Assembly (NCBI RefSeq): GCF_030295975.1 | Contig: NZ_AP027364.1 | Coordinates: 1,984,001-2,048,000, forward strand | Direction: 5' to 3' | Length of the DNA stretch: 64,000 nt | Source of the DNA: Thalassotalea atypica | GTDB taxonomy: Bacteria > Pseudomonadota > Gammaproteobacteria > Enterobacterales > Alteromonadaceae | Shown here: in pieces, positions 40,429 through 64,000 of the stretch | Numbering within the stretch: the first letter of the stretch is position 1 | How the letters are laid out: every line of letters begins with the position of its first letter | Program-made: the position numbers and the translations under genes | Notes under the pieces: generated by a model | Databases searched by the model: none | What the model saw: only the letters and a program-made list of their open reading frames with translations | Told to the model about the DNA's origin: nothing

Positions 40429-40998
40429 TTGTTTAACTTGGCCGTATCGCATATTGCTAACTATTTGAACCAGTTTCTACAGCGTCAGTTTGAGCTGCAT
40501 GAAGATATAGTTGTGGTTTCAAACTTGGTTGGTATCGACGGCGCTTCACCTATTGATATTCAAAATAGAATCGTTATTTCAATCATTAATATTGAAAAAG
40601 ATCACGGCTTCAAAAATCAAAGACAAGCTTTACCCGGGAAAGACAGTGTCGGCGTTAAATCACCTCCGCTTTATATTAATTTTAATATTATAGTTTCTGC
40701 TAATTTTGCAAAATATTCCGAGGGACTAAAGTTACTGTCTGCTACCTGTCAGTATTTTCAAATCCAACCTGTTTTTGATCACCATAATTCTCCCGATCTC
40801 GATGCCAATATCCATAAGCTAATCTTGGAATTTGAAAATTTAAGCCTTCAAGATCTCAGTAGTTTATGGAGTATCATTGGTGGTAAATATCTTCCCTCTG
40901 TTATTTACAAACTCAGAACCGTGATATTGAATTCAGACAATATCATCGGGCGTAAAGAACTTGCTGATTCTCCTTCTGTCGATGTAGGTGCCGAGTAA
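40429..40998 (+). CDS. eCIS DUF4255 (Pvc16/Afp16-type) cap or terminator protein
   Basis: 189 residues of the DUF4255 family: SHIANYLNQFLQRQFEL, DIVVVSNLVGIDG, IQNRIVISIINIEKD, PLYINFNIIVSAN, and SLQDLSSLWSIIGGKYLPSV. Afp16 relatives form the ring that ends tube and sheath growth. The TTG at 40429, with AGGGAG eight bases before it, is preferred to a GTG at 40420 that overlaps that ribosome site. It is the first gene of the operon, whereas in Afp/PVC loci the homologue is last. It is followed five bases later by the next gene. Confidence 0.8.
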   Translation: MFNLAVSHIANYLNQFLQRQFELHEDIVVVSNLVGIDGASPIDIQNRIVISIINIEKDHGFKNQRQALPGKDSVGVKSPPLYINFNIIVSANFAKYSEGLKLLSATCQYFQIQPVFDHHNSPDLDANIHKLILEFENLSLQDLSSLWSIIGGKYLPSVIYKLRTVILNSDNIIGRKELADSPSVDVGAE

Positions 40999-41003
40999 TC
41001 GCC

Positions 41004-41930
41004 ATGCATAGCACTATTGTGAATGTATCAGTTAGACACGACTACTATGTAGGCGGCTTTTTGCAGGCGTTTGATTATCAATTAAGTAATCAATCCAAGA
41101 TCCTATTTCATAATGCTGATGCGATTTTTCGAACACATATTAACGGCTTTGAAATATTAGCGACAGAGGAAACGCGAAACATATTTCAAGAGTTGGTTAA
41201 TGAATACGAAACCGACGTTATTGAAGCTAAAAAGGTAAACGTTAACAAAACGAAAAATGACGAAAAAGTCGCATTGCCGACACCGCCTGCAATTATTGTC
41301 AGGGCTTATGATGTAGATAGACGTTTTATTCAATTAACAAGTACATCCATACGCCCTAATAACACATGTTATTTCATATCCAACATAACTGCCCAGTTGA
41401 GTAATTTACCATTTTTACATGTTAATCAATATGTTGGTGAAGAAAACGTTAAGAGTTTAAATCATGTTGAACTGATGCCTTGGTTAGTTAGAAAGGACTG
41501 GTTTAATACACCTGTCATCCTCTTTTGCTTTTATCTTTCCGATGTTTTGCTCCAATTGAATCAAAACCAAGAAAGTGACCATGGCCTTAACTACACCATA
41601 GGCTTTGAACCAAGACAAAACATTTGGAAGTATCTAATTTTTGGTGCGGAAAAATATCAAGGAATCACAATCAAAGATTTAGATAACAACGTCAACTTTC
41701 AATTTGAAGGAAGCGAAACTGTAGGTGGAAAAACATCATTAGTTTACACATCTAAAGAACCAGTAAAACTCAAGGAAAATACTAATCAACGCTTTCAGCT
41801 AAAAGCTGAAGTTAACGAAATAGAGACCATATTAATAAAGCGGCTGCCTTTAGCGTCAATAACGCAAGTAAATTCGAAGACACTCAATGGTAAACAAACA
41901 GTAGTATCTGAAATATTTGTAAATTTATAA
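41004..41930 (+). CDS. Unknown eCIS operon protein between cap and sheath
   Basis: 308 residues, no signal peptide. The N-terminal VSVRHDYYVGGFLQAFDYQLSN, a lysine-rich stretch near residue 77 (AKKVNVNKTKNDEKV), and a beta-rich C-terminal half (IKDLDNNVNFQFEGSE, VYTSKEPVKLKE) are seen. I recognise no family. Other eCIS loci, notably in Bacteroidota, often have an unassigned gene at this place, so a structural role at the distal or sheath end is possible. Same strand, 5 and 19 bases from its neighbours. Confidence 0.6.
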   Translation: MHSTIVNVSVRHDYYVGGFLQAFDYQLSNQSKILFHNADAIFRTHINGFEILATEETRNIFQELVNEYETDVIEAKKVNVNKTKNDEKVALPTPPAIIVRAYDVDRRFIQLTSTSIRPNNTCYFISNITAQLSNLPFLHVNQYVGEENVKSLNHVELMPWLVRKDWFNTPVILFCFYLSDVLLQLNQNQESDHGLNYTIGFEPRQNIWKYLIFGAEKYQGITIKDLDNNVNFQFEGSETVGGKTSLVYTSKEPVKLKENTNQRFQLKAEVNEIETILIKRLPLASITQVNSKTLNGKQTVVSEIFVNL

Positions 41931-41949
41931 CTAATTTGAGGAAAAAAAG

Positions 41950-43533
41950 ATGGGAACCATGAAAACACCTGGTGTTTATATTCTAGAAAAAAATGCCTTT
42001 CCTAATTCAGTGGTTGAAGTAGCGACAGCAGTACCTGCTTTTATTGGATATACAGAAAAAGCGATAAAAGACAAAAAGTCATTGACTAAAAAGCCGATTC
42101 GAATTTCATCGATGGCTGAATTTCACAATTATTTTGGTGAGGCGCCACAGCCGACGTTTTATATTAAAGAATTTAAAGGTGATGGTTCAGATACTAAATT
42201 GGAATCCGATCTTCAAATAGGTTCAATCAATTATACATTAGAACGATCTAAGTTTTCCCCTGTATATCGCCTGTATTACAGCATGAAAATGTTCTTTCAA
42301 AACGGTGGTGGGCCATGTTATATCGTTTCTGTTGGTGACTACAAAAGTGGAAATGATGCGATTGAAGCCATAAAAGAAAGCGACATGACAGATGGCATTA
42401 AAACACTACTAAAAGAGCAAGAGCCTACCATGGTCGTTATACCTGATGCGGTATCGTTAAGCACAGGGACTGTTTGCTATACCGTACAACAAGCAATGTT
42501 AAAGCACTGTGGTGAAGTCATGAAAAGCCGAGTTGCTTTACTTGACGTCTATAACGGTGCAGACGGTGGCGATTCGGTTAAGGAGTTTCGAGATGGAATT
42601 ATTGGTAATAGATTAGATTTTGGCGCGGCATATTACCCGTGGTTAAAAGCCAATGTCGTTGCAGAATACGAAGTCAGTTATAAGAACTTTAGTCGCGAAA
42701 CAGATGAAACAGACGACGGCGGAGCGGCGAAACTGGTTGATATCATTATAAAAGATGTTGGTGTTAGTGATGCTGAAATTGCTGCATTGCCAGAAAAGGA
42801 ACAACCCCAAGCTCAAGAGAAAAACGATAAAATCCAATTAATACTTGATGATGAAGTGATCAAAGACGATGAAAAATCAAAAGAGCTTGATAACAGCTTA
42901 AAAGCAATGAGTGATGAATACAAAATGCTACTTAAGGAAATTCAAAGTGCATTGAATTTGATGCCGCCATCAGGTGCTATGGCAGGTATATACACTGCCA
43001 TTGATAATTCACGAGGTGTTTGGAAGGCGCCTGCCAATGTCGGCGTCAATGGTGTTAGTGGACCTTCAATTGAAATTTCACATGAAGAACAAGAAACCTT
43101 AAATGTTGATGTAAATGGTAAGTCAATCAACGCTATTCGTTCGTTCATCGGTGAAGGAACGCTTGTTTGGGGTGCAAGAACACTTGATGGCAACAGCCTA
43201 GATTGGCGCTACATCAGTGTGCGCCGCACGATGATAATGCTTCAGCAATCGATAAAACTTGCTACCAAGGCTTATGTCTTTGAAGCCAATGACGCCCAAA
43301 CTTGGGTTACCGTTAAAAGCATGATCAGTAATTTCTTAACGGGTATCTGGAAACGAGGAGGACTCGCTGGTGCATCTCCGTCTGATGCCTTTAGTGTTCA
43401 TGTAGGGTTAGGGGAAACCATGACACCTGAAGATATTTTAGAAGGGATCATGAGAGTTTCTGTTTTAGTTGCCATGACCCGGCCAGCAGAATTTATTGAA
43501 ATTACCTTTAAACAACAAATGCAAAAATCTTAA
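41950..43533 (+). CDS. Contractile tail sheath protein
   Basis: 527 residues. The N-terminal MKTPGVYILEKNAFPNSVVEV and VPAFIGYTEK, and the C-terminal NAIRSFIGEGTLVWGARTLD, SVRRTMIMLQQSI, MRVSVLVAMTRPAEFIEI are those of Afp/PVC and phage sheath proteins. Contraction of this outer cylinder drives the inner tube into the target. An acidic/lysine-rich insert (about residues 255-325, e.g. PEKEQPQAQEKND) lies between the domains and is likely surface exposed. GAGGAAAAAAAG precedes the ATG. Confidence 0.95.
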   Translation: MGTMKTPGVYILEKNAFPNSVVEVATAVPAFIGYTEKAIKDKKSLTKKPIRISSMAEFHNYFGEAPQPTFYIKEFKGDGSDTKLESDLQIGSINYTLERSKFSPVYRLYYSMKMFFQNGGGPCYIVSVGDYKSGNDAIEAIKESDMTDGIKTLLKEQEPTMVVIPDAVSLSTGTVCYTVQQAMLKHCGEVMKSRVALLDVYNGADGGDSVKEFRDGIIGNRLDFGAAYYPWLKANVVAEYEVSYKNFSRETDETDDGGAAKLVDIIIKDVGVSDAEIAALPEKEQPQAQEKNDKIQLILDDEVIKDDEKSKELDNSLKAMSDEYKMLLKEIQSALNLMPPSGAMAGIYTAIDNSRGVWKAPANVGVNGVSGPSIEISHEEQETLNVDVNGKSINAIRSFIGEGTLVWGARTLDGNSLDWRYISVRRTMIMLQQSIKLATKAYVFEANDAQTWVTVKSMISNFLTGIWKRGGLAGASPSDAFSVHVGLGETMTPEDILEGIMRVSVLVAMTRPAEFIEITFKQQMQKS

Positions 43534-43580
43534 TTTGCATATTAACTCATTTAAGTAAACGTCTAGTTTAGGAGAACATC

Positions 43581-44039
43581 ATGGCTGATGATGGAAGTGC
43601 ACAATCAACAACAGTATGGCCAATGCCCAAATTTCACTTTCAAGTGAAGTGGGACTCGGAGGTCATGTCATTTCAAGAGGTTTCAGGCTTGGATCTTGAA
43701 GCTCAAATCATTGAGTATCGCTCAGGTGATAGCAAACAATTTTCTACAGTGAAAATGCCAGGCATACAAAAATCAGGCAATGTCACCATGAAAAAAGGGG
43801 TATTTAAATCAGACAACAAGTTTTGGGATTGGTTTAGTCAAATTAAGATGAACACCATTAAAAGAGTACCAGTCACTATTAGCTTGCTAGATGAAACGGG
43901 CGCACCAACAATGGTTTGGACTCTAGCAAATGCTTGGCCAACAAAAATAACAGGGACTGATCTTAAGTCCGACGGTAATGAAGTGGCGATCGAGTCGATA
44001 GAAATTGCACATGAAGGTTTAGTGATTGCTAATGGTTAG
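43581..44039 (+). CDS. Inner tube protein 1 (T4 gp19-like)
   Basis: 152 residues, the standard length. Hallmarks are WPMPKFHFQVKWDSEVMSF, QEVSGLDLEAQIIEYRSGD, KMPGIQKSGNVTMKKGVF, and NAWPTKITGTDLKSDGNEVA. Many hexameric rings of such proteins stack to form the tube that carries cargo. AGGAGAACATC precedes its ATG. A second, divergent tube gene follows at once; the main tube polymer is probably this one. Confidence 0.95.
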   Translation: MADDGSAQSTTVWPMPKFHFQVKWDSEVMSFQEVSGLDLEAQIIEYRSGDSKQFSTVKMPGIQKSGNVTMKKGVFKSDNKFWDWFSQIKMNTIKRVPVTISLLDETGAPTMVWTLANAWPTKITGTDLKSDGNEVAIESIEIAHEGLVIANG

Positions 44040-44091
44040 TTAATTGCTAGTTGTGTTGTTAACAACACTTGCTTTGCTAAGGAGCTTAAGT

Positions 44092-44571
44092 TTGTCTTTA
44101 TCTGTCCCTTCATTATTGAAAAGTGATGAATATCCACCACCAGCATTTCACTTTAAGGTGGTTTTCTCTGCCACGGCTGGACTTTCTGATACGGCGTTTC
44201 AGGAAGTCTCTGGCATTAGTTCGGAAATAGATACCGAAGAATATGCAGAGGGCGGTGAAAACAGATATCTACACAATTTACCCAAAGCTGTTAAACACCC
44301 CAAATTGGTGCTTAAACGCGGTATTGCGAAGCTAAGTTCGCCTTTGGTGATTTGGTGTAAAAGTGTTTTTGAAGGTGATTTTATGGTGCCAATTGTACCC
44401 ATGCCGATTCTCGTATTTTTGGTAAACGAGAAAGGCATGCCAAGCCGTATTTGGTCTTTTGCCAATGCGTATCCGGTCAATTGGGAAGTTGAAACATTTA
44501 ATTCAACTAAAAATGAAGTAGCGATTGAGAAGATTGAACTTAGGTATAACTATTCAAATCGGATGCTTTAA
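44092..44571 (+). CDS. Inner tube protein 2 / tube initiator (gp19-like)
   Basis: 159 residues of the same tube family: PAFHFKVVFSATAGLSDTAF, QEVSGISSEIDTEEY, LPKAVKHPKLVLKRGIA, and FANAYPVNWEVETFNSTKNE. In Afp and PVC a second tube protein (Afp5/Pvc5-like) starts the tube on the baseplate; that role is inferred. The start is TTG at 44092 with a perfect AAGGAG seven bases upstream. An in-frame TTG at 44044 would add sixteen hydrophobic residues and lacks such a site. Confidence 0.88.
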   Translation: MSLSVPSLLKSDEYPPPAFHFKVVFSATAGLSDTAFQEVSGISSEIDTEEYAEGGENRYLHNLPKAVKHPKLVLKRGIAKLSSPLVIWCKSVFEGDFMVPIVPMPILVFLVNEKGMPSRIWSFANAYPVNWEVETFNSTKNEVAIEKIELRYNYSNRML

Positions 44572-44574
44572 CTT

Positions 44575-44754
44575 ATGAGTTTAGAAATAAAACAATTGGT
44601 TATTAAGTCTGAAGTTAAAGACAAAGATAATAATGAAATCGCACAAGTAAATGGTGCTGATATTAGTTGTGAATTGGATGAATTTAAAACAGAGCTACTA
44701 AATCATTGCCGTAAAATTGTAGCTGAACAACTACGAAAATCTAAGGAAAGGTAA
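44575..44754 (+). CDS. DUF5908 small eCIS protein
   Basis: 59 residues starting MSLEIKQLVIKSEVKD and ending in a helix KIVAEQLRKSKER. DUF5908 proteins of this size recur between tube and LysM genes in eCIS loci; role unknown, perhaps a linker or chaperone of the baseplate. ATG lies three bases after the tube gene and its TAA abuts the GTG of the next gene. Confidence 0.78.
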   Translation: MSLEIKQLVIKSEVKDKDNNEIAQVNGADISCELDEFKTELLNHCRKIVAEQLRKSKER

Positions 44755-45450
44755 GTGAGCGGTATTAGTACAGGGTTGAAACAAAAGTTAACCATTAATG
44801 AATGTAAGCTCAACGATGGTCAAATTTCTATTGTTCAAAGCAATAAATTTGAAGTGATGTTAAATCCGTCAAATTATTCGCATAAGCAGTCTATTTGCTA
44901 CAATAAGAAGAAGACATTGGGGCAATTAGGCAGCGAAAATAAATTTAACGCACTTAATTCAGATAACGTTAACTTTTCCATTATGATTGATGGAACTGGA
45001 GTCGTAAATCTACCTATTCCAGGAATTGGCTCACCGGACGTTAAAACCCAAATTAGACAACTCAATAGTGTTGTTTATAAATATGACGGTAATGACCATG
45101 AACCGAATCAAGTTCGCTTACTATGGGGTAGCTTTATTTTATTTGGTCGCTTAGAGTCTATGACGACTGACTTTACCTTGTTTAAGCCCAATGGCGATCC
45201 TTTACGCGCCAAAGTGAATTTGGCGTTTGTTGGCTTTTTAAGTAAAGAAGAAGAGGCATTAAAAGCAAACCGTTCGTCCCCCGATTTATCGCATTTAATT
45301 GAAGTAAAAGCAGGCGATACACTACCGTTGCTTTGTTATCAAGTTTACAAAGATTGTAGCTATTATCGAGAAGTGGCCAGAGTAAACAACTTAGTTGATT
45401 TTCGCCACTTACAGCCTGGTACCAAACTCCACTTTCCGCCCTTGAGATAA
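44755..45450 (+). CDS. LysM-domain tube/spike adaptor (Afp7/Pvc7-like)
   Basis: 231 residues. The N-terminal part (FEVMLNPSNYSHKQ, KKTLGQLGSENKFN, VRLLWGSFILFGRLESM) is the CIS tube-adaptor domain; the C-terminus is a LysM module (HLIEVKAGDTLPLLCYQVY, ...VNNLVDFRHLQPGTKLHFPP). It joins the tube initiator to the spike. GTG start immediately after the DUF5908 stop, with AAGGAAAGG upstream. Confidence 0.92.
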   Translation: MSGISTGLKQKLTINECKLNDGQISIVQSNKFEVMLNPSNYSHKQSICYNKKKTLGQLGSENKFNALNSDNVNFSIMIDGTGVVNLPIPGIGSPDVKTQIRQLNSVVYKYDGNDHEPNQVRLLWGSFILFGRLESMTTDFTLFKPNGDPLRAKVNLAFVGFLSKEEEALKANRSSPDLSHLIEVKAGDTLPLLCYQVYKDCSYYREVARVNNLVDFRHLQPGTKLHFPPLR

Positions 45451-45452
45451 TC

Positions 45453-47240
45453 ATGGCCGACTCTCCAGCACTTAACTCTAGCGGTGTGATCAAATGCACC
45501 ATTTTTAGCGAAGGAAATTCGTTAAACCAAAACTATCGGTTGATATCCATTGTTATCGAAAAGAGGATTAATAAGATTGCCAGAGCTGAATTAGTGTTTA
45601 GCGACGGTGATATGCCCAACAAAAAATTTCCGTTAAGTGATGCTGAAGAAGTTAGTCCAGGAAAAAAAATCACTATCAAAGTGGGCTATGGTAATTCTGA
45701 AGATCAGATTTTTGAAGGTATCGTGATAAGACACGGTTTGCATATAGATGAAAGCACATCAATATTGAAAATACATTGTTTCGACGAGGCGTTGGCAATG
45801 ACTGTTGGCCGCAAAAACGCCAATTTTATCGATTTGAAAAACAGTGACATTATTTCTCAAATCCTCAATCAATATAACCAAATTACTAATGAAGTGACTG
45901 AAAGCACCACTAAATTTGCTGAGCTAGTTCAATACAATGCTAGTGATTGGGATTTTATGGTGGCAAGGGCAGAATCAAGCGGTTTATTGGTGGCTGTAGA
46001 AGACGGTAAAGTGTCAGTTTTTAACCCAAAAACACAAGGTGATGCTCTGTTAACGGTTACATACGGAGAAGACTTGATCGAATTTGAAGCCGATATTAAC
46101 GCCCAGCAATTATATAAAGAGGTTAAATCGATTGGTTGGAATTTAGATAATTTAGCAACACAAGAAGAAGCAATCTCTTCTTTAGCTCTCAACAAACAAG
46201 GGAACCTAACTGAATCAACGCTCGCTGAGATATTAAAACTTGATTCATATAGGTTACAAACTACTGTGCCATTAGAGCAATCTGCACTTAAAGAATGGGC
46301 GACCGGACAGCAACAAAAATCCAGTCTCTCTAAAATATGTGGTCGTATGACATTTCAAGGAAGTGCAAAGGCGAAACTTGCTGGTGTTATTGAAATAAAG
46401 GGTGTCGGTAAACGATTTAGTGGCAATGTATTTATCAGTGGTGTGCGTCATGAAGTGGTCAATGGCAATTGGATTACCGAAGTCCAGTTTGGCTTAGATG
46501 CAAAATTTTATACCGATGAGAATAATGTTCATAGCTCAAAAGCTGCTGGCCTAACACCAGGCGTTGAAGGGTTAATGACAGGAATAGTAGAACAGTTAGA
46601 CGAAGATCCTCAAGGGCAAAATAGGATCAAAGTGGTGGTACCCGTTTTACAAGCTGAAACACAAGGAGTGTGGGCGAGGCTAGTTCAATACTACGGTTCG
46701 TCGGGGTTTGGTAATTTCTTTATTCCCGAAATTGGCGATGAAGTGGTGCTTGGCTATTTCAATAATGACCCTTCAAATCCTGTTGTTTTGGGGAGTTTAT
46801 ATAGCAGCAAACACACGCCACCTTACGATCTTACTGCTGATAACTTTATTAAGGCCTTAGTAACTAGAAGTGGTCATAAGGTGGAATTTGATGATGATAA
46901 AAAAATTATCACTATTGTCACACCGAGTGAAAACTCGATCGTTTTAAGTGATGACGATAAATCAATCACCTTAGCTGACCAAAATAGTAATACGGTGACA
47001 TTAAATACCAGCGGTATTGCGTTAGACAGCCCCAAAGACATCTCAATCAAAGCCAAGGGGACTATTAATATTGATGCTGTAGGGAAAATCTCGGTTTCAT
47101 CAAAGGCAGATATTGCGCAGTCAGGTTTAAATATAAGTAATACTGCCAACGTTGGTTTTACTGCAAAAGGTAATGCAACTGCCGAACTATCTGCATCGGG
47201 ACAAACCACCGTAAAAGGTGCGATCGTCATGATTAACTAA
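45453..47240 (+). CDS. VgrG-like spike protein (Afp8/Pvc8-like)
   Basis: 595 residues. The N-terminal gp27-like half (GYGNSEDQIFEGIVIRHG, IHCFDEALAMTVGR) is followed by a gp5-like OB fold (MTGIVEQLDEDPQGQNRIKV, IPEIGDEVVLGYFNNDPS, NPVVLGSLYSS) and a C-terminal beta-helix (KDISIKAKGTINIDAVGKIS). It forms the central trimeric spike under the tube. Two bases after the LysM gene. Confidence 0.95.
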   Translation: MADSPALNSSGVIKCTIFSEGNSLNQNYRLISIVIEKRINKIARAELVFSDGDMPNKKFPLSDAEEVSPGKKITIKVGYGNSEDQIFEGIVIRHGLHIDESTSILKIHCFDEALAMTVGRKNANFIDLKNSDIISQILNQYNQITNEVTESTTKFAELVQYNASDWDFMVARAESSGLLVAVEDGKVSVFNPKTQGDALLTVTYGEDLIEFEADINAQQLYKEVKSIGWNLDNLATQEEAISSLALNKQGNLTESTLAEILKLDSYRLQTTVPLEQSALKEWATGQQQKSSLSKICGRMTFQGSAKAKLAGVIEIKGVGKRFSGNVFISGVRHEVVNGNWITEVQFGLDAKFYTDENNVHSSKAAGLTPGVEGLMTGIVEQLDEDPQGQNRIKVVVPVLQAETQGVWARLVQYYGSSGFGNFFIPEIGDEVVLGYFNNDPSNPVVLGSLYSSKHTPPYDLTADNFIKALVTRSGHKVEFDDDKKIITIVTPSENSIVLSDDDKSITLADQNSNTVTLNTSGIALDSPKDISIKAKGTINIDAVGKISVSSKADIAQSGLNISNTANVGFTAKGNATAELSASGQTTVKGAIVMIN

Positions 47241-47264
47241 ATTAGAACAATGTAAGGATAAATT

Positions 47265-47564
47265 ATGCCTCCAGCAGCAAGACTTACCGACTTACATGCC
47301 TGTCCTATGGTAACACCTGGCTTACCGCCGATCCCTCATGTGGGCGGTCCAGTTATAGGACCTGGTGTTGTCACTGTATTGATAGGAAGTATTCCCGCTG
47401 CTGTAGTTGGTGATAGTGCTATTTGTGTTGGCCCTCCTGACACCATTATAAAGGGCTCGGCGACTGTAATGATAGGTGGAAAACCTGCAGCCCGAGTAGG
47501 TGATAACACTGCCCATGGTGGCTCAATTGTTATTGGTTTACCGACTGTGATCATAGGAGGTTAA
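47265..47564 (+). CDS. PAAR-domain spike tip protein
   Basis: 99 residues, almost all PAAR repeats: MPPAARLTDLHACP, GPVIGPGVVTVLIGSIPAAV, GGKPAARVGDNTAHGGSIVIG. It caps the spike and sharpens it. No extra toxin domain is attached. In Afp/PVC the PAAR gene follows gp25; here it precedes it. Confidence 0.95.
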   Translation: MPPAARLTDLHACPMVTPGLPPIPHVGGPVIGPGVVTVLIGSIPAAVVGDSAICVGPPDTIIKGSATVMIGGKPAARVGDNTAHGGSIVIGLPTVIIGG

Positions 47565-47566
47565 TA

Positions 47567-47989
47567 ATGAGTGAGTCTACAACATTATTTTTAGGCAAGG
47601 GTTGGAGCTTTCCTCCTACGTTTAGTCAACAAAATAAACGTGTTGATATAGTTTCCTATGAAGACGACATTTATCAAAGCTTAATAATCATCCTTTCTAC
47701 TAATCCTGGAGAAAGAGTAATGCATCCGACTTTTGGTTGCGGGCTAAAATTGATGGTGTTTGATGTTATAACGGAAAGTACTGTGACTGAAATCATCGAT
47801 CTAGTGGAACGAGCGATTCTGTTTTTTGAAACACGTATAACGCTCAATGAAGTCGTTGTAAATATTGATGACTTTTATGAAGGGCGGATCGATATTTTAT
47901 TGGACTATACGATCAGAAAAATCAATACCAGAAGTAACATGGTTTACCCATTTTACTTCTCTGAAGGCACGGACTTGCCATCATCATGA
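47567..47989 (+). CDS. gp25-like baseplate wedge protein (Afp9/Pvc9-like)
   Basis: 140 residues with GKGWSFPPTF, YQSLIIILSTNPGERVMHP and TFGCGLKLMVFD, the typical gp25/Afp9 blocks. It forms part of the baseplate wedge and starts sheath assembly. Its TGA overlaps the next ATG (ATGA), so it is co-translated with the large baseplate gene. Confidence 0.93.
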   Translation: MSESTTLFLGKGWSFPPTFSQQNKRVDIVSYEDDIYQSLIIILSTNPGERVMHPTFGCGLKLMVFDVITESTVTEIIDLVERAILFFETRITLNEVVVNIDDFYEGRIDILLDYTIRKINTRSNMVYPFYFSEGTDLPSS

Positions 47990-52012: not shown

Positions 52013-52897
52013 ATGGCAAAGCGTGATAGAGAAACTTTAAAGCGATTCTTTCAACGGGGGGCTTTACCTTCAGCAGATCATTTTTCAGATTTTATTGATT
52101 CATCATTGAATATGCGGGAAGACGGTTTTAGCAAAACACCTGAAGAGGGTTTTCAAATATCTACTTTGGCGAACAAAAATTCGTTAATCAGCTTTTATCA
52201 ACGTAATGACTTTAATGAGCCAATATGGTCGTTCAAGTTTAATGAAAGCACTCTAAATAACTTGGATCTGGTACAAAAGATTAACGAAAAGCAACCTCGT
52301 AATATAGTGTCATTTAATCCTTTAGGTTATGTCGGCATCAATAATGACTCTCCTGCGCGAGCGCTAGATGTCAATGGTAATATCAGAGCACATGGCAGGG
52401 AAGGAGCTGAGCCAAAAGTTGTTTATGCCGATTCTACATTTTATGATATTACTGAAGGCCTAGACGGCTGTCATGCCATTGATGTAGTGGCTGGAGTTGG
52501 TCTTAAATTCTCAGGCATGTATGCACTCTTACACGCAACGGCAATGAACACATTTCATCCAGATAATTTGTTCGAAAAAATATTTTCATTTAAAAAAAGG
52601 ATTAAAAAACAGCACAGTTATTATTCTTCTTTTTCCCACCGAATTAAGTTGCGATGGCACAAAAAAGTTGATGGAAAATATTATCTACAATTAGGAACTC
52701 ATTGCGATTATTCAAAAAAACACCAAGACACAGCCAAGTCAAATAGTGAAAAAGTCAGGGTCAGATACCACTTAACATTTCTTTGGCATGATCCGTTTAT
52801 GTCGAGCTGCTTAGAAACAGCGCCGGATGAAAACACCTTGGATAACGTGAAAGCTTCTAATAGCGATACAGCGTCTAATGCAGATAAGTGCGAGTAA
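52013..52897 (+). CDS. eCIS baseplate/fibre-associated protein, unassigned
   Basis: 294 residues from the ATG at 52013, eight bases after the baseplate gene. An upstream in-frame start at 51950 lies inside that gene and is not preferred. The middle has the fibre-like pattern GYVGINNDSPARALDVNGN, then IRAHGREG, and a longer block DITEGLDGCHAIDVVAGVG with MYALLHATAMNTF seen in other eCIS loci. A receptor-binding or needle-cage role is plausible but unproven. It lacks the length of the Afp13-type fibre. Confidence 0.65.
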   Translation: MAKRDRETLKRFFQRGALPSADHFSDFIDSSLNMREDGFSKTPEEGFQISTLANKNSLISFYQRNDFNEPIWSFKFNESTLNNLDLVQKINEKQPRNIVSFNPLGYVGINNDSPARALDVNGNIRAHGREGAEPKVVYADSTFYDITEGLDGCHAIDVVAGVGLKFSGMYALLHATAMNTFHPDNLFEKIFSFKKRIKKQHSYYSSFSHRIKLRWHKKVDGKYYLQLGTHCDYSKKHQDTAKSNSEKVRVRYHLTFLWHDPFMSSCLETAPDENTLDNVKASNSDTASNADKCE

Positions 52898-52906
52898 GGC
52901 CAGCGG

Positions 52907-55438: not shown

Positions 55439-58400
55439 CATTGTCATAGATCAAGCAGCGCTTGAAGTAACTTTTCAAAATCATACTCAGGCAACAAGTT
55501 ACGAGCATGAATTGACCGCAATTTGTCAGGATTCGTTATTGCCCATTATTGAACGTAAGCTTAGCTCGGCATTGTCTTTAAAGTCGCAAACTATTGACTA
55601 CCTCGAGCTTAATTTGGGCACGCTAAATAGCGCAAATTTGCAAAATGAGATGACATTCAGATTGGCCTTTGAGTTAGAACGGATTTTAGGTGAAGTAAAT
55701 AGCAATAAGTCTAAAAATGAACAAGACTTAGTCAAGTTATGCACCAAAAAAGAAAAACTACAGGATTCAGAAAAGTGTCAATTAATCAGCTGGCTACTTA
55801 ATGTAGCCAGCTTTTCAGACAAAGAATTAGCGGCACACTACCAAGATATATACAATTTGTTGAAGAAAGTAATTGAACTACAGCCACGTATTATTGCAAT
55901 AGTTTTACGTGAGCATGTAGATAGCATTGAAAACGTAAAGCGTCTAGTCAGTTTGATTGACCATGAACAACTAACGAAAATTTTTAAAGAATTGTGTAAA
56001 AAATTGAGTACTGAGAAAATTCATTTTCTGCAAGAGATTTTTAGTAAAACGATTGAAAATAGAGAATTGACTACGGCGCAAAAATATCATACAGAGCAGT
56101 TACTTGCGTCGCTTATTTGCTTCTCAGCCCAATCTAACTTCAGTGGTTTTGATGCTTATAACATAAAACACATAATTAGAAAATTAGGACTAAAACTAGA
56201 ATTTAACACCATATCTGATGATACATTATCATCTATATTCACAGAGCCTTCGCATTGTCGAAGAGTTAACCAAGCAATTGTATATGAAAATAATGAAGGC
56301 TGTTCATTGCTGAGCGGATTTTCCAGAGCGTTAAAAACAAATGATCGCGATGCTTGTAGAAAATACCTAGAACTTTTGCTACTTAATTCTCCACTCGCAC
56401 TAGTTGAATTTATTCGATGCTATCAAAATAAGCAGTTGATCATTAAAACATTGTGCCACCATTTACTAGATAAACAGCTGATAAATGTCATTACGCATTA
56501 TGACAAAGAGCATACAGAATTAGTCGATTGGCTGCCATTTTTTACCCTGTCGATATCATTAGAAACATTGCCTTTGTCCTCGATGAAAATTAGCAGACAA
56601 GAAAGTAAAAGCATTGCATCAATAATCGCCAAAGAGGCATGGCGACATTTGTTTTGGTCGATAACGCTTGAATATCTCTTTGTTCAAAAAAGACACCTTA
56701 ATACTCAACAAGCATTTTTGTGTTACTTACTCTACAACTTGGCCAACAACAATGGTTTAAAACCAACGTCGTTGCTTGAGTATTTTCGTTTTAGCATCCG
56801 CAGTTTATCAGGAGCTAATTCTCTTAAATGTTTGTTGGATAGTTTATTTATAACACTAGAAAGTGACTATGAGTCTGAATCGGTGAAACAAAAATATATC
56901 AACGATATTGATCAGCAAATTGTTCACCATCAAGACATAGAGCTATTGATAGAAAGTACCTATAAACTAAAAAATAATAGAGAACAGCAGTTAAATCGAA
57001 TTGTGATTTCGTTACTAAACGGTTCGTCATTTACCAAGTTGATGTTATTTCAAGCGTTAAAAGCGCAAGTAATAAAGGGTATTGGGATTGACGTTCAACT
57101 GAGCAATAAAACACTATCTGAGTTACTAAAAACTAGCCTGATGACATTAAGTCACTGGAGTCAAGAAAACAGCAATCAGCTATTGAACTCAATAAATCGA
57201 ATAGCGGTAAATGAGCATGAAAAGTCAAAGTATTACCTATTGTCACTCGAAAAAAACTTACTAAATGAGGCTATTGATATAAGGCTGCTAAGCCAGTATG
57301 TGCAAAAAAATGTCCTAAATTCAGGTCTTGACCAAACTAACTCTTTATCTGCTACTAGCCATTATGATGCTGAGCCAGTTGAGAGGAATGAAATTGTAAA
57401 CTACTTAACTGAATTTTTAGAGCCTAACAATGCGTTGGCTATTGCGATGAAAAGCTCTGAACGAGCAAAACTATTTCACAACGACATGGTTATGGGAGCG
57501 CTTGAGCAGTGCCCTGATTTTTTGCGCAAAAAAGTCGAACACGCACTACATAATGAGACATCATTTTATAGTTTCATTCAGCACTTGAAAGAGTCATTGT
57601 TAATTCGATTAGCTATGTTACTCAATAGTAATCGATTTGTTGATATCTACCGTCGTTACAAGTGGTTATATATGGCTACGTACAACAGCGTCTATTCAGG
57701 AGGTAACTTTAATTTATTGAAATGGAATCACTTATTTCTTCAGTTGCAGGCTGATGTGCATTTCGATAATGGCGTTGATGGTGTAGATAGCTGGGTCAAA
57801 CAGGTTGCTAATAAAGTAGATAAACCACGCAGACTGACTAAAAATATCATCATGAAAAAACTATCATATTACATCGATGAAAAATATCTTGATGATAAAA
57901 ATGTGTTGGATTTTTTTAGAACAGATACCACAAATCAGCTCGTAAATTCCGCACGTGAAATAGACTTTGAAAAGAAATTAAGCCCAAAACTGTCAAGCAA
58001 TCACAGTGAATATAATTACTTTGAGTCAATACTATTCACTCTGTTTACCAGGAAAAACGCTAACATTTCGATGTCAGCGTATATCAGAGTCTTAGAGGCA
58101 AGTGCTGATATAGTCAGGCAATACTTCACTCAATACGTGGGGAATACTCAGCATCGCAATTGTTTCATTAGCAACATATCGAACAATGCACTTCAACAGA
58201 CCTGTTCGATATTGTTCAACGAAAAATACGATGGTCTATTGTGCAAACTGTTTGATGAGTTATCTTTAAATACTTATTGCGGTGGGCTACAAGGCACAAA
58301 AAGTGTAGACCGCATCATATGGTCTTGCTTACTGAGTTACTTTCATAATCAAGGGACTGAAGACTTCGTACTTGAACAGTGTATTGATTATTTATCTACC

Positions 58401-60131
58401 GAGTTTCAAAGGAATAATATTTATTTAACCGAGCCCGGTGTATGCCTTGACGATAATGCCAACGTTCGAAACCGATATTGTGCTATGTGGGAAAAAGTCA
58501 GAAATCGTCAAGCATCAAGTGGTGACAGTGAAGATACTACAGCATTAATGGCTAAACGTGAGAAATTGAGTCAAATAAAGAATCAGTTCTTAATATTACC
58601 CATTTCCGCAGAGTTACTTTCTAGTATTGGTCAAATGTGCAAGCAATGCGCTATGGAAGCACTAGCGTTTTACAACTGGCTAGTGAATTGCCAACTTTCA
58701 AAGAAAAACCTTAATGCATTATCGGTTAATCAGCTTAATGAACTAATTAAAAACTATTTGAATTTGATCATCCAAGACAAGCAAACATGTGCTGATTATA
58801 TGATTCAATTGGCGACATATATTACAAAGCATAGCTATGAAAAGCAGGCCCTAATTTATAGTTTAATACAATTAGTCACAACGAAGTTCATAGATTTTTC
58901 GAGTATTGAAATCCAAAACCGTATTAATGATTATCAAGAGAATAAGAATATTCCAAGCGACGAGACTTATAAAAAGCTCACTTTGGAAAAACATTCACCT
59001 GAACTTGCTAAACTGCCCGCATTGAGTGCTGCCCTTAAAGCGGGAAACGCTCAGAAAATTGTATTTGAAATACAACAATACATCGAAACGCATGCCAATC
59101 ATTATGAGTTAATTGACTTTTTGACTAATGATAACGTGTTTATGCAGCTAACCAATTGTGTGTCGGAATCTGACTTACTTATCATTTTGTCTTATTTTAA
59201 CGTTAAGAGCTTAGGTAAGACGCTAGAATTGACCACAATATTGCAGATGCTGCTATCGAGGAGGAACATTGGTGTTACTCAGGCAGAAATAAACCTGCAT
59301 CAATGGAAAGTTATTTTTGATTATTTCCTAATTCAAGGACTAAGTTTTAATCTTGCCTGGTTTATTCATCAATACTTTCATTCATATATTCTTAAGTACA
59401 AAAACGTATCTACTCAATTGAGCTCTGAGCTTGAATTACTGATCAGTGAACTTTCGTTTTATCAACTTGGCTTTGCTGAAATTTCTTTCAAAAAGACTGT
59501 TGAAGGGTTAGTTAAAACCCTATCGGGAAATATTTCAAATGAAAGGGGGCAAGCACCATTAGTGGCAACGGATACTCATCAACAAGATAATGTGAGAGAT
59601 GACGCATTTAAACATGATAAACCACAAATCGCGTATATCAATAATGCAGGTTTAGTGTTGTTATCTCCATATTTACCTAGATTATTCTCGATTATGGAGT
59701 TGACACAACACGGAAAATTTCGCGATCAATATCACCAAACAAAAGCAGTAAATGTCTTACAACATATTATAGCGCCTGAACGCGAATTTCATGAGCATCA
59801 ACTGGCATTAAACAAATTAATGTGTGGCATGGAGTTAAGCCAAAGCGTAAAGCCAGATCCCACTCTGAGCGATAAACAAAAAGAAGTCATCAATGATTTA
59901 CTCTCTGAAGTAATCAAACAATGGCCAGCACTTGGAAATACCAGTATTAATGGTTTACGCCAAACATTTTTAGCCAGGGAAGGTGCATTGTATAGGGAAG
60001 AAAACAACTGGCATCTTGACGTATTACCAGAGCCATTTGACATCTTATTAGACGGGCTTCCATGGACCTATTCAACGTTTAAGTATTCTTGGATGACGGG
60101 TTTATTATCAACTACATGGAGGGATTCATAG
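55428..60131 (+). CDS. CIS tape-measure-family protein, 1567 residues
   Basis: Assigned to the contractile injection system tape measure family by two ends. The N-terminal SLLPIIERKLSSALSLKSQ and DYLELNLGTL, and the C-terminal IAYINNAGLVLLSPYLPRLF, HQLALNKLMCGMELSQSV, QWPALGNTSINGLRQTF, and WHLDVLPEPFDILLDGLPW are characteristic. The roughly 1400 residues between are helix-rich without clear repeats. The family is thought to set tube length, so a long protein may mean a long particle. GAGAGGGGGG stands before its ATG. Confidence 0.88.
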   Translation: MNNNIVIDQAALEVTFQNHTQATSYEHELTAICQDSLLPIIERKLSSALSLKSQTIDYLELNLGTLNSANLQNEMTFRLAFELERILGEVNSNKSKNEQDLVKLCTKKEKLQDSEKCQLISWLLNVASFSDKELAAHYQDIYNLLKKVIELQPRIIAIVLREHVDSIENVKRLVSLIDHEQLTKIFKELCKKLSTEKIHFLQEIFSKTIENRELTTAQKYHTEQLLASLICFSAQSNFSGFDAYNIKHIIRKLGLKLEFNTISDDTLSSIFTEPSHCRRVNQAIVYENNEGCSLLSGFSRALKTNDRDACRKYLELLLLNSPLALVEFIRCYQNKQLIIKTLCHHLLDKQLINVITHYDKEHTELVDWLPFFTLSISLETLPLSSMKISRQESKSIASIIAKEAWRHLFWSITLEYLFVQKRHLNTQQAFLCYLLYNLANNNGLKPTSLLEYFRFSIRSLSGANSLKCLLDSLFITLESDYESESVKQKYINDIDQQIVHHQDIELLIESTYKLKNNREQQLNRIVISLLNGSSFTKLMLFQALKAQVIKGIGIDVQLSNKTLSELLKTSLMTLSHWSQENSNQLLNSINRIAVNEHEKSKYYLLSLEKNLLNEAIDIRLLSQYVQKNVLNSGLDQTNSLSATSHYDAEPVERNEIVNYLTEFLEPNNALAIAMKSSERAKLFHNDMVMGALEQCPDFLRKKVEHALHNETSFYSFIQHLKESLLIRLAMLLNSNRFVDIYRRYKWLYMATYNSVYSGGNFNLLKWNHLFLQLQADVHFDNGVDGVDSWVKQVANKVDKPRRLTKNIIMKKLSYYIDEKYLDDKNVLDFFRTDTTNQLVNSAREIDFEKKLSPKLSSNHSEYNYFESILFTLFTRKNANISMSAYIRVLEASADIVRQYFTQYVGNTQHRNCFISNISNNALQQTCSILFNEKYDGLLCKLFDELSLNTYCGGLQGTKSVDRIIWSCLLSYFHNQGTEDFVLEQCIDYLSTEFQRNNIYLTEPGVCLDDNANVRNRYCAMWEKVRNRQASSGDSEDTTALMAKREKLSQIKNQFLILPISAELLSSIGQMCKQCAMEALAFYNWLVNCQLSKKNLNALSVNQLNELIKNYLNLIIQDKQTCADYMIQLATYITKHSYEKQALIYSLIQLVTTKFIDFSSIEIQNRINDYQENKNIPSDETYKKLTLEKHSPELAKLPALSAALKAGNAQKIVFEIQQYIETHANHYELIDFLTNDNVFMQLTNCVSESDLLIILSYFNVKSLGKTLELTTILQMLLSRRNIGVTQAEINLHQWKVIFDYFLIQGLSFNLAWFIHQYFHSYILKYKNVSTQLSSELELLISELSFYQLGFAEISFKKTVEGLVKTLSGNISNERGQAPLVATDTHQQDNVRDDAFKHDKPQIAYINNAGLVLLSPYLPRLFSIMELTQHGKFRDQYHQTKAVNVLQHIIAPEREFHEHQLALNKLMCGMELSQSVKPDPTLSDKQKEVINDLLSEVIKQWPALGNTSINGLRQTFLAREGALYREENNWHLDVLPEPFDILLDGLPWTYSTFKYSWMTGLLSTTWRDS

Positions 60132-60186
60132 TGAATCCGGATAACGTACATGATTTCTTCTTGTGGTGGTTCAAAAGGAGTTATCT

Positions 60187-61575
60187 ATGATAAACGCCCA
60201 GCAATTGTATATCGCATTAAACAAAAGTGATGATCTCAAAGCGCTCAATGCAGAAGTGATGGAATTTGAAGTGCAATGGTTTCAAACAGTTTTGACACAA
60301 CGCCTAACTCATTATTTCGAATTAGATCAGGAATTTGATGTTTCAACCATTGTCCCTCCAAATATTAATGAACATAGCTCGGCGTATGCGCAATTTATAT
60401 GTCAAAACAACTTAAATTACTGCCAACGATTAGCTATTTTATTGGCGTTAATGCCTCATGTTAAGCCGGGTGTTCTGGATACATTTTTTATTAAGAATAC
60501 TAACCTTGAAAGAAATTATACCGAGTTTGGAGGACTTCAAGGAAAAGCGCATACAGGCTTCTTACCAACAGTTGAAACATTAATTTTTATTTTGTCAGGG
60601 AACAACATGAATGAACGCTTTACAGCATTACACTTGTTTGATGACGAAAGCACTTTAATAAAGAACAAAGTGGTGGAAATAAACCGTGAGCACAAGGATG
60701 AGCCATTTTTATCAAGTGGTCTTAGAATTGGTGTCGACTATCTCAATCTATTTACTACTGGTGTAGTACACAAACCTGATTTTAGTATGTCGTTTCCAGC
60801 CAAGAGGATCTCAACTCCGTTAGCATGGGAAGAACTTGTCTTAAATCATAATGTGCTTGACGAAATTGAACAAATCACGAGTTGGGTTAATTTTCAAAAT
60901 ACCATTATGGGCGAGTGGGAATTATCAAAGAATATCAAGCCGGGCTATCGCGCTGCACTATACGGTCCCCCAGGTACCGGGAAGTCACTGACTGCAACAT
61001 TGATAGGCAAGAAAACAGGAATGGATGTTTATCGAATTGATCTATCTGCTATTGTTTCTAAATATATTGGCGAGACGGAAAAGAACCTAGCAAATGTCTT
61101 TGACCAGGCTGAAAATAAAAACTGGATACTGTTTTTTGATGAGGCTGATGCTTTGTTTGGAAAACGCACTGGAGAATCTTCATCGAATGACCGTCATGCT
61201 AACCAAGAAATCGCTTATTTATTGCAGCGAACTGAGAGTTTTCCAGGGGTCATCATCTTAGCGACAAACTTAAAATGTAATATGGATGACGCATTTGTCA
61301 GACGGTTTCAGTCAGTCATCTATTTTCCAATGCCAGACGAAACACTTAGAGCAAAATTATGGCGAAATATTATCGGAGACAGGTGCCGCCTTGCCGATGA
61401 TGTTGATATACATGCCCTTGCGGAGCACTACGAATTATCTGGAGGCTCTATTATCAATGTTGTCAGACACGCAGCCATCAATGTGCTACGCAATAAAAAG
61501 GAACTGTTTCATCAACAGGATTTTATTCAAGGCATTAGAAAGGAAATGCTTAAAGAAGGGAAGGTGATATCGTGA
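60187..61575 (+). CDS. AAA+ ATPase (Afp15/Pvc15-like)
   Basis: 462 residues from the ATG at 60187, with AAAGGAGT seven bases upstream (an in-frame start at 60163 is less likely). Walker A GPPGTGKS at residues 260-267, Walker B ILFFDEAD with Asp318-Glu319, then sensor-1 region ILATNLKCNMDDAFVRRF with arginine finger pair. The N-terminal half is a substrate-binding region with no known catalysis. Afp15 relatives help particle assembly or cargo loading. Its stop overlaps the next start (GTGA). Confidence 0.93.
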   Translation: MINAQQLYIALNKSDDLKALNAEVMEFEVQWFQTVLTQRLTHYFELDQEFDVSTIVPPNINEHSSAYAQFICQNNLNYCQRLAILLALMPHVKPGVLDTFFIKNTNLERNYTEFGGLQGKAHTGFLPTVETLIFILSGNNMNERFTALHLFDDESTLIKNKVVEINREHKDEPFLSSGLRIGVDYLNLFTTGVVHKPDFSMSFPAKRISTPLAWEELVLNHNVLDEIEQITSWVNFQNTIMGEWELSKNIKPGYRAALYGPPGTGKSLTATLIGKKTGMDVYRIDLSAIVSKYIGETEKNLANVFDQAENKNWILFFDEADALFGKRTGESSSNDRHANQEIAYLLQRTESFPGVIILATNLKCNMDDAFVRRFQSVIYFPMPDETLRAKLWRNIIGDRCRLADDVDIHALAEHYELSGGSIINVVRHAAINVLRNKKELFHQQDFIQGIRKEMLKEGKVIS

Positions 61576-63785
61576 GCACCGTATTATCAGTTCGAAAAAT
61601 TAGCTGCTTCAATATGAGAACCTTTTATATATGTTTCATATTGAGTTGTATTTCAACTCTTACAATTGCTAATGATGTCAAAAGCAGTAGCGCTGAGTTG
61701 TCTTGTGAGCAGGCGTTGGACGAAAATCATCAGTTAACTAAATTACAAAATATGTTAATTCAAGTGGGGCTGTACCATGTCAATATGGAGTTCAAAGACG
61801 ATGTGCAACAATACAAACAGGACGCAAAACTACTCTCAGACAGTGTCGTCGGAAAGGTAACTCGCCAATGGCTCAGTAGTTTTTGTTCGTCGTTAATTGA
61901 ATATCAGAAAGCCAACGTGATCGCTACATTATTTATTTATTCGGCCATTAAAAAAGTTGAGCCAGATTGTAAAGCCGTCAGTAACATTTCAATGTTAAAT
62001 CAGTGGTTTAACAAACAAACACAAGGGATAGAAAAAGAGTGGGTCCAAGGGTTGCTGCGCCAATGCAGCCTTGATTCAGCAGAAACATTGATAGGGCAGA
62101 AGTCATATAAACCAAACTACTACATGTTAACGGCGGAAGACATGAAAACTATCTCCAAAAAAGATGAATCGAATAAAGCGCCAAACAATTTAACTATGGA
62201 AGTTGAATTTCCACAGAAAATATTGGATACCCTGAAACTAGTACAAGATAAACCATTTCCAACTTATCGACTATTTGCCAAAACATTACATTCTATTTTA
62301 AAGGAAGATTTAACATCGCCACAATTCGCGGGTGTAGAATCTCTGGCTAACAAAGGTATAGAGATTAATAATACGGTTTTGGGCAGTGCTGATTGTGGTT
62401 GTGTAAAAAATATTGAAGATAATAAAGTAACTTACAACATATATCCTGGTTGGTTGTATTCTGCAGCTGATAAAGAACACGTAGCACCAATGTCGAAGGA
62501 TAAAGAAAAAGCAAAGACAGACAAATTAAAGAAAATTGATTACAGCACTATTTCCCGGATAGGTTATCAAGGGCTAAGCCTTAGTGAAAATGGCAAATTT
62601 AATCACGAAACAGCTTTAAAGTATTGGTATAAGGCCAGTGAAAAATTTATTAAGCAAGCTAACCAGCACTACAGTAAAAAGGATATTATCGTAGAATTAG
62701 AAAACTGGAAATCGTGGGATAAATTAACTATTAAGGAAGCGCTTACCAGTTTTAAATACAATATCTTAAACCCTGAACACTATGCTGCCAGCTCCAAATC
62801 CATGCCAATAGATGGTGTTACTTTATATTTTCCTGACTATTCTTCAGAGTTTAATCTTCAATTATCAGAAATCGCTGATGAATTTATTAGCTTAAAGAAG
62901 GATCACGCTGAATTTCATGTCAACGTTTTGCTAGATATAGCAATTTGCGGGGCCAATATCGATTGCTCTACCGCGAAATTGAACACACCACTAGTTGACT
63001 TGAAAACGTGTGAAATTGCCATTGGTGGAAAAATTAAGAAGCAAGAAGAAAGTAGCCGATGCGCTGTGGTTAAATCGGAGGGCGCCACGATAGAAGAGCA
63101 AGAGGCCGCTAAACACAAAGTCGATATGGAAACATTAAATTACGTATTGATTTATTTACCAGAGAAAACAACCGAAACCAAAAAGCACTTACGAAGAGTA
63201 ATAGAAAACACCTTTAAAGGAGAAGGTCGTAGTAAAATGTTAAATAAAATCATCCCTATCATAGTGCCTTACGACTTATCTCAAGAACAGAGTTTCGAAC
63301 AAGTTGAAGATGATATCGTCTATGCGAAACATAATTTTGGCGGCATTGGTTTTTGGCCACTTCCACTTGAGGGAGAGCCTTCGTTCAAAAAACTACAGGG
63401 TATTATCAACACGCACCTTTTTAACAATGCCGAACAAAAATACATAGAGAAACTTGTTAGTAAAGTACTGCCTATAGAAATGTGTGATTTCATCTGCACT
63501 CAGCGGGGGTACTTCAGAACCGTATTAGGGACGCTTGTGTTTTTTCTAGTCGTTTCTGCTTTCGCCAAAAGCTCATCATGTTATGTCTGCAAAATTATTG
63601 AACAATACCAACGTACGTATTTATCTTCATGGATTGCTACTTTAGTTTTGGTACTTGCGATGCTTGGTTGTGATCGATTTTTTCAAGAACATGCAGACAA
63701 AGCAATGTCTGGGGTGGTTGTCACAATTGTGTTTTATTTTATTGGCAACTACATTATTAATATCAAAAAAAAGCAGTTGCCGTGA
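61572..63785 (+). CDS. Exported membrane-anchored protein coupled to the eCIS ATPase; possible degenerate GH18-like domain
   Basis: 737 residues. A hydrophobic N-terminal segment (RTFYICFILSCISTLTIAN, about residues 16-34) suggests a signal peptide or anchor; the internal ATG at 61614 is an alternative start. Many cysteines lie in the exported part. The block NIYPGWLYSAAD, IDYSTISRIGYQGLSL and DGVTLYFPDYSSE resembles the GH18-type barrel of uncharacterised exported proteins, but lacks the DxxDxDxE catalytic motif. Two or three membrane segments close the protein (VLGTLVFFLVVSAF, IATLVLVLAMLGC, VVTIVFYFIGNYII). It overlaps the ATPase gene by four bases. Function is not known. Confidence 0.65.
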   Translation: MSTVLSVRKISCFNMRTFYICFILSCISTLTIANDVKSSSAELSCEQALDENHQLTKLQNMLIQVGLYHVNMEFKDDVQQYKQDAKLLSDSVVGKVTRQWLSSFCSSLIEYQKANVIATLFIYSAIKKVEPDCKAVSNISMLNQWFNKQTQGIEKEWVQGLLRQCSLDSAETLIGQKSYKPNYYMLTAEDMKTISKKDESNKAPNNLTMEVEFPQKILDTLKLVQDKPFPTYRLFAKTLHSILKEDLTSPQFAGVESLANKGIEINNTVLGSADCGCVKNIEDNKVTYNIYPGWLYSAADKEHVAPMSKDKEKAKTDKLKKIDYSTISRIGYQGLSLSENGKFNHETALKYWYKASEKFIKQANQHYSKKDIIVELENWKSWDKLTIKEALTSFKYNILNPEHYAASSKSMPIDGVTLYFPDYSSEFNLQLSEIADEFISLKKDHAEFHVNVLLDIAICGANIDCSTAKLNTPLVDLKTCEIAIGGKIKKQEESSRCAVVKSEGATIEEQEAAKHKVDMETLNYVLIYLPEKTTETKKHLRRVIENTFKGEGRSKMLNKIIPIIVPYDLSQEQSFEQVEDDIVYAKHNFGGIGFWPLPLEGEPSFKKLQGIINTHLFNNAEQKYIEKLVSKVLPIEMCDFICTQRGYFRTVLGTLVFFLVVSAFAKSSSCYVCKIIEQYQRTYLSSWIATLVLVLAMLGCDRFFQEHADKAMSGVVVTIVFYFIGNYIINIKKKQLP

Positions 63786-63875
63786 TTGTACTAATAGCGG
63801 CAGCTATGTGGATTAAAATATAGGTAGAACAGTTGTCAGGTGTTAATCAACATGCTGTGTTAATCGAATGGATAA

Positions 63876-64000
63876 ATGATGAAAACATACAGTGAACAAT
63901 CTCGACAAGTTGCCAGTAAAGTAAAGGCCAATTCAAATAGCTATAGTCAAAATAACAAAAGCGGCAGTCACTTTTTTACGGATAAAAGGGCTACTACCGC
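63876..64000 (+). CDS. Putative eCIS cargo/leader protein, truncated at the window edge
   Basis: 41 residues visible, opening MMKTYSEQSRQ and reaching SHFFTDKRATT at the edge, with no stop. The MKTYSE... opening and the later F-x-D/N-R block resemble the N-terminal leader on eCIS-linked proteins, often followed by DUF4157 and toxin domains. Only the beginning is in the window, so product and length cannot be given. It lies 90 bases after the membrane protein; the ribosome site (ATGGATAA) is weak. Assignment is by N-terminal similarity from memory. Confidence 0.55.
   Translation, partial: MMKTYSEQSRQVASKVKANSNSYSQNNKSGSHFFTDKRATT

Follow-up and report, generated by a model that had tools for sequence, protein, structure and literature searches.

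A stretch of 64,000 nucleotides from the chromosome of Thalassotalea atypica (contig NZ_AP027364.1, positions 1,984,001 to 2,048,000, or C1:1984001-2048000; hereafter the window) holds a complete, apparently intact contractile injection system (CIS) of the clade to which SalCIS and the Bacteroidales injection systems (BIS) belong. The clade is known and the system is not new in kind. A little-noticed and testable component of it is encoded beside the ATPase gene, an envelope protein of 737 amino acids (p737), which together with a short Cis13-type fibre leads to the tentatively preferred reading that the particle is attached to the producer's own envelope and not freely released, the anchoring being inferred. 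The question has some weight, as the released or cell-bound state of a CIS decides its targets and possible uses. The clade is widespread, with at least 579 relatives, and includes the BIS of the gut, whose mode of action is left open in those parts of the literature on which this account draws.

A complete contractile injection system

The host genome (4.39 Mb, a single contig) contains one sheath gene, and the complete CIS operon around it runs along the + strand from position 40420 to 63785 of the window. Beyond it, a gene for an eCIS_core protein (named for the extracellular CIS, eCIS) spans the right window edge, and coordinates past that edge are given in the overlapping stretch L002. 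An earlier note made from the letters of the window had listed most of these genes; all those it named are there, on the + strand and in the order it gave, as judged by Pfam and, for the wedge proteins, by matches to chains of SalCIS entry 9rce. Its parts list had overlooked Cis16b, the short fibre between Cis11 and Cis12, and the membrane protein p737.

40420..40998, +, Cis16a, cap protein (Pvc16_N / DUF4255; Pfam 5.2e-29)
41004..41930, +, Cis16b, probable second cap protein or cap adaptor, 308 amino acids (phmmer 7.6e-4 to PDB 9r9n_C, 'SalCis16b - cap'; relatives in the same slot)
41950..43533, +, Cis2, contractile sheath (Pfam 3e-10 and 5e-9; PDB SalCIS sheath 2.5e-171)
43581..44039, +, inner tube protein A (Phage_T4_gp19 2.9e-49)
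44044..44571, +, inner tube protein B (Phage_T4_gp19 1.2e-37)
44575..44754, +, DUF5908 protein, probable spike plug, Cis6-like by position (Pfam 1.8e-10; function by analogy with Alg6/Cis6)
44755..45450, +, Cis7, tube-to-baseplate adaptor with a LysM-like end (CIS_tube 9.8e-43; LysM 0.008, sub-threshold)
45453..47240, +, Cis8, VgrG-like spike (Phage_base_V 1.7e-21)
47265..47564, +, Cis10, PAAR tip (Pfam 5.6e-22)
47567..47989, +, Cis9, gp25 sheath initiator (Pfam 1.5e-20)
47986..52005, +, Cis11, long baseplate wedge protein, 1339 amino acids, of the caged-baseplate length class (PDB 9rce_A 5.1e-127; AlgoCIS 7aeb_G 7e-54; Anabaena thylakoid CIS (tCIS) All3317 5e-47)
52013..52897, +, Cis13-type short fibre, p315 (14-row profile; likely start ATG 52013 by alignment, in an open reading frame (ORF) listed from 51950)
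52907..55438, +, Cis12, baseplate wedge, 843 amino acids (PDB All3315 1e-49; SalCis12 4e-48; Alg12 1e-36)
55428..60131, +, Cis14, tape-measure protein (CIS_TMP 3e-82)
60163..61575, +, Cis15, AAA+ ATPase (AAA 1.8e-28)
61572..63785, +, p737, envelope protein, 737 amino acids (predicted signal segment, peptidoglycan-binding-like segment, GH18 fold without the catalytic motif, three C-terminal membrane helices)
63876..64000 and past the window edge (L002:1876-2520), +, eCIS_core protein (DUF4157, HExxH), 214 amino acids (Pfam eCIS_core 5.4e-11)

Cis11 and Cis12 have no Pfam match and were recognised by sequence search of the PDB (SalCIS baseplate entry 9rce, 5e-127; SalCis12, 4e-48). The eCIS_core gene is present as a single copy in a search of the host genome, and its small product carries no other Pfam domain.

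That the system is of eCIS type, and not a phage, a tailocin or a type VI secretion system (T6SS), was already the view of the earlier note, and it holds. Genes for cap, sheath, tube, spike, PAAR, gp25, Cis11 and Cis12, CIS_TMP and the AAA+ ATPase form one cluster without capsid genes, with the eCIS_core gene adjoining. Common tail ancestry would allow for a defective prophage, an R-tailocin or a T6SS, but any of these is highly improbable, given the presence of DUF4255, CIS_TMP and eCIS_core. The sheath is closer to eCIS sheaths than to those of phages or T6SS: against the PDB it matches SalCIS at 2.5e-171, far ahead of phage and pyocin chains at 5e-7 or weaker and one 'sheath' chain at 5.6e-8, and not one of the 473 records of a phage collection that match it covers 80% of its length. 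IcmF/TssM (PF06761), of the membrane complex of T6SS subtypes i-iii, was not found in the host genome, while an E. coli control was positive. To the right, neither a Pfam search of six proteins nor a reading by eye of the ORF lists for the following 38 kb revealed a capsid, terminase or other phage gene. To the left, the two proteins run against Pfam (DUF3750 and DUF3083) included no phage gene, the rest of the window not being searched for such genes.

The envelope protein p737

The layout predicted for p737 begins with a signal segment, followed by a peptidoglycan-binding-like segment (residues ~57-106), a GH18 barrel fold (~271-620) and three C-terminal membrane helices. Its fold relatives are the GH18 chi-lectins and the cortex-lytic enzyme SleL, from which p737 differs by an incomplete catalytic motif and by its three membrane segments. 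The full GH18 motif DxxDxDxE is missing from all 21 rows of the p737 family, and a role as an enzyme is less likely for that reason.

Of the 34 clade loci examined, 30 have a member of this family, or a Bacteroidales protein of the same plan, either next to the ATPase gene or closing the operon. The 34 include near copies (Rheinheimera G335, G249 and G401) and leave out G239 and G308, which have distant sheaths and no such membrane protein after the ATPase; with these two the count is 30 of 36. The p737 profile search likewise includes Rheinheimera genomes that nearly duplicate rows of its model, and an Aureibacter plasmid row in the first p737 alignment is absent from alignments A3 and A4 and from the structure model. 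The Bacteroidales membrane protein, which follows the ATPase, is modelled as a GH18 fold with three membrane segments. A first profile comparison between it and p737 was weak (10.9%), and with more sequences only the transmembrane (TM) module was supported. That p737 is instead carried as a load, acts as an effector, or has a part in immunity or in some other unrelated process, is improbable, as its position is kept in so many loci, it carries an export signal and membrane segments, and housekeeping genes come directly after it in G278.

No description of a p737-type protein was found in the literature searched, including the parts consulted of PMC7394362, PMC8213781, PMC12210884 and PMC12923769. 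A membrane protein in PDB entry 9r9a, probably that of SalCIS, matches p737, and at least those who deposited the entry know of this envelope protein. By its code and homology 9r9a is probably from the same study as the SalCIS entries 9r9h, 9r9i, 9r9n and 9rce.

Some smaller features of these proteins may be added. The last codon of p737 (window 63780-63782) encodes a proline; the aligned proline is invariant in A4 and is the final residue in 18 of the 21 rows, and nine Bacteroidales proteins read to their ends likewise finish in proline. In L191, an Alistipes metagenome-assembled genome (MAG), the ATPase and the membrane protein share one frame of 896 amino acids, by fusion or assembly error. 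In Desulfoluna L181 and L182 the slot after the ATPase is filled instead by a TPR protein with two hydrophobic segments.

The short Cis13-type fibre

The fibre frame has 315 codons, and alignment places its probable start at residue 22, which leaves 294. With a 14-row fibre profile, the N-terminus matches the tCIS Cis13, All3316 (2e-5), and the shaft matches the Bdellovibrio fibre Bd2133 (7.5e-10); the window fibre alone gives a weak match to All3316 (0.44). Median identity to the window among 14 relatives is 39.5% for Cis13, 28.2% for Cis11, 27.9% for Cis12 and 61.4% for the sheath, with 49.0% for the ATPase among 11 relatives. In alignment columns the C-terminal part of Cis13 has a median of 38% in 13 other rows, and from these sequences we read the tip as kept across phyla, unlike a variable target-binding fibre.

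Related proteins have been linked to membranes elsewhere. Cis13 of Anabaena holds the particle in the thylakoid membrane (PMC8894136), and the Cis13-type protein of T6SS subtype iv (T6SSiv), which has a BIS homologue, has been proposed to help anchor that system to the inner membrane (PMC12210884). PMC12210884 puts the identity between the Cis13 of the Amoebophilus T6SSiv (Aasi_0556) and a BIS counterpart at 30.4%. Any likeness of the window to that system would run through this BIS fibre; the window fibre aligns with Bacteroidales fibres.

A proposed attachment to the producer's envelope

Attachment is inferred because a full contractile particle is combined with a predicted wall-facing inner-membrane protein whose GH18 fold is without the catalytic motif, and it is favoured because the p737-type protein recurs in 30 of 34 loci and the Cis13 tip is kept across phyla. 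The particle would be assembled in the cytoplasm and would work attached to the producer's envelope, an arrangement reported for the tCIS and the T6SSiv. Its baseplate side would make the attachment, through the short Cis13 fibre with its conserved tip and through p737, an inner-membrane protein whose periplasmic peptidoglycan-binding-like segment and GH18 barrel may grip the cell wall. When triggered, the sheath would contract and push tube, spike and load either across the envelope to the outside or into the producing cell. If this is true, p737 would be an anchoring design distinct from those that fill the same role elsewhere, namely the T6SS membrane complex, CisA of the Streptomyces CIS and the membrane helix of Cis13 in the Anabaena tCIS.

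Several points weigh against attachment, which for the window CIS is quite possible but is held tentatively. One relative from clade Ib, AlgoCIS, has particles that lie free within the cytoplasm (PMC8894135). No p737-type protein follows the ATPase in two Desulfoluna genomes, in the Tannerellaceae locus L189 (for which only frames of at least 220 amino acids were listed) or in the Alteromonadaceae MAG L202, and L188, one of the 30 positive loci, breaks off where its contig ends and was included on its profile match only. The GH18 model of the Bacteroidales protein is weak (pLDDT 64.9), and sequence homology between its periplasmic part and that of p737 is not supported (3%). Peptidoglycan binding by p737 is suggested by a motif and by sub-threshold Pfam matches (0.022 and 0.053). 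As modelled, p737 in its predicted topology would expose only short loops and a tail of ~5 residues to the cytoplasm, and with so small a surface it is not plain how a baseplate in the cytoplasm would dock. The window Cis13, for its part, is without a hydrophobic segment and is less conserved than the sheath, tubes, PAAR, spike, gp25 and ATPase (48-77%), and the reading of its tip has no target-binding fibre as a control.

The kinship with SleL would also suit a classical extracellular CIS released by lysis, in which p737 is a release aid, acting in wall remodelling or lysis, with the Cis13 fibre attaching to some widespread target. Such a release aid sits poorly with a catalytic motif missing in 21 of 21 rows, and no lysis gene was recognised among the six right-hand proteins run against Pfam; an eCIS_core gene does stand at the operon end, and the solved relatives of the parts include the released AlgoCIS, the antifeeding prophage (Afp) and the Photorhabdus virulence cassettes (PVC). 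With Cis13 kept across phyla as a further point against it, this account is rather unlikely, and we hold extracellular action to be less probable than an envelope-attached particle. A self-directed device is unlikely as well. Attached particles would then fire inside a stressed producer and bring about programmed death, as proposed for the Streptomyces CIS and the Anabaena tCIS (PMC8894136 and PMC12237407); the missing long Afp13-type fibre and a sole eCIS_core protein that is small and free of other Pfam domains agree with this, while no expression or death data were found for the clade and no effector for it was identified. Attachment to the envelope is the reading that is kept here for the window. 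Its extension to the whole 'extracellular' branch, from marine Gammaproteobacteria to gut BIS, each built onto its producer's envelope by an inner-membrane pseudo-chitinase anchor and a conserved-tip Cis13, is doubtful.

Gene order and sheath phylogeny

In Afp and PVC there is a long Afp13 fibre and the cap gene comes last. The earlier note was right that the window differs from them, with its cap gene first and no long Afp13-type fibre, and the likeness it saw to Bacteroidota loci holds for BIS; the idea that its order is special, or non-canonical, is not supported. The order cap16a-cap16b-sheath-tube-tube-(DUF5908)-Cis7-spike-PAAR-gp25-Cis11-Cis13-Cis12-tape measure-ATPase-p737 is common to G278, G335, G249 and G169, and from cap16a to p737 it is also complete in Rheinheimera, Undibacterium, Nitrosomonas, Roseateles and Oryzomicrobium, with DUF5908 detected in only part of the loci of this type. 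G269 has it from cap16b to the ATPase, where the fetched stretch stops; in G105 and Marinomonas the ATPase is relocated. Bacteroidales loci follow it from cap to Cis12, beyond which the order of tape measure, eCIS_core and ATPase varies. Since loci across gamma- and betaproteobacteria, Desulfoluna and Bacteroidales have it, this order is the usual one of the clade (Pseudomonadota, Desulfoluna and Bacteroidales BIS).

Within the genus, the host is the only one of seven genomes with a sheath. Across its taxonomic order the sheath finds a match, often a weak one, in 46 of 394 genomes, ten of which (the host included) reach E <= 1.6e-170. From a scan of genome contigs, 80 loci were kept of the at least 579 relatives, in Pseudomonadota, Desulfobacterota and Bacteroidales, with other phyla contributing single MAGs. 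A quick sheath tree had 105 rows; a careful one had 69, with 36 long branches and near copies left out. In both, Bacteroidia form one clade within a mainly proteobacterial radiation, and the window sheath falls outside it; in each tree its companions are G143 and G115, which G278 joins in the 69-row tree. There the window and these three genomes of its own order have support of 98/87, and the nine Bacteroidia rows 94/84. By the approximately unbiased (AU) test, nesting of the window inside Bacteroidia is rejected (p 0.020) and a grouping of Bacteroidia with the window alone is borderline (0.090); the test does not reject a grouping of Bacteroidia with the whole window clade of four rows (0.267). 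A weak joint branch (84/91) unites the window clade, one Alteromonadaceae MAG and Bacteroidia, and gives no direction. The transfer from Bacteroidota suggested by the earlier note is thus not supported by the sheath trees and AU tests, and no Bacteroidota donor is shown. Nor was an insertion boundary drawn, because apart from DUF3750, present in two of seven genus genomes (host included), no tested flank gene is shared in the 40 kb around it in G001.

Sheath genes that are intact but orphaned, with 58-63% identity to that of the window, lie in L010 (G143), L013 (G115) and L009/L043 (G171). The stretches read in these genomes hold no other CIS genes, and ATPase matches are at FtsH level only; the G115 sheath gene has a PAS/histidine-kinase gene beside it, and that of G171 a Bax1-I gene. 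Parabacteroides plasmid 20 (L038, circular, 52 kb, of which 23 kb was fetched) carries a cap gene, a hypothetical gene, a sheath and two tubes, then non-CIS genes, and is perhaps a plasmid-borne partial CIS.

Likeness to known systems

SalCIS (PDB 9r9h, 9r9i, 9r9n and 9rce) is the closest solved relative, with sheath, Cis11, Cis12, Cis16b and membrane protein matching those of the window. It is evidently gammaproteobacterial, because its sheath is 80-82% identical to those of Marinomonas, G169 and G105; the window sheath lies on another branch of the tree. The BIS (group Ib) share the order from cap to Cis12, relatives of Cis13 and a membrane protein, modelled as a GH18 fold with three membrane segments, after the ATPase. 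They differ in the variable order of the later genes, in shorter Cis11, Cis12 and membrane proteins, and in sheaths that form their own clade. The Anabaena tCIS resembles the window in its long Cis11 and the N-terminus of Cis13, but its Cis13 has a C-terminal membrane helix, where the window has none and a separate membrane protein instead. AlgoCIS and the metamorphosis-associated contractile structures (MACs) share the cap adaptor, the plug and the long caged Cis11 class, while in AlgoCIS the fibres are Alg19 and the particle lies unattached in the cytoplasm (PMC8894135). Afp and PVC (clade Ia) share the core tail genes; they have several sheath proteins and a Cis11 of 607-728 amino acids, against a single sheath, a leading cap gene, a short fibre and a Cis11 of 1339 amino acids in the window.

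The right flank

To the right of the operon come eCIS_core, a pentapeptide/TM gene, a membrane gene of 278 amino acids, a channel-like gene, DUF2750 and metabolic genes. The first of these after eCIS_core (L002:2513-3961) encodes a pentapeptide-repeat protein with one N-terminal and three C-terminal hydrophobic segments. Two genes past it (L002:4884-5981) lies one resembling ligand-gated ion channels (TIGR00860 3.5e-6, below the cut-off; a proton-gated channel in the PDB, 0.001), which is present in one of the seven genus genomes and has no match in the other six. The pentapeptide/TM, 278-residue membrane and channel-like genes are candidate cargo at most. Between positions 1600 and 6600 of L002, promoter-like sites are no more numerous than chance would give (16 against 16.7), and the first terminator-like site on the + strand is at 5599.

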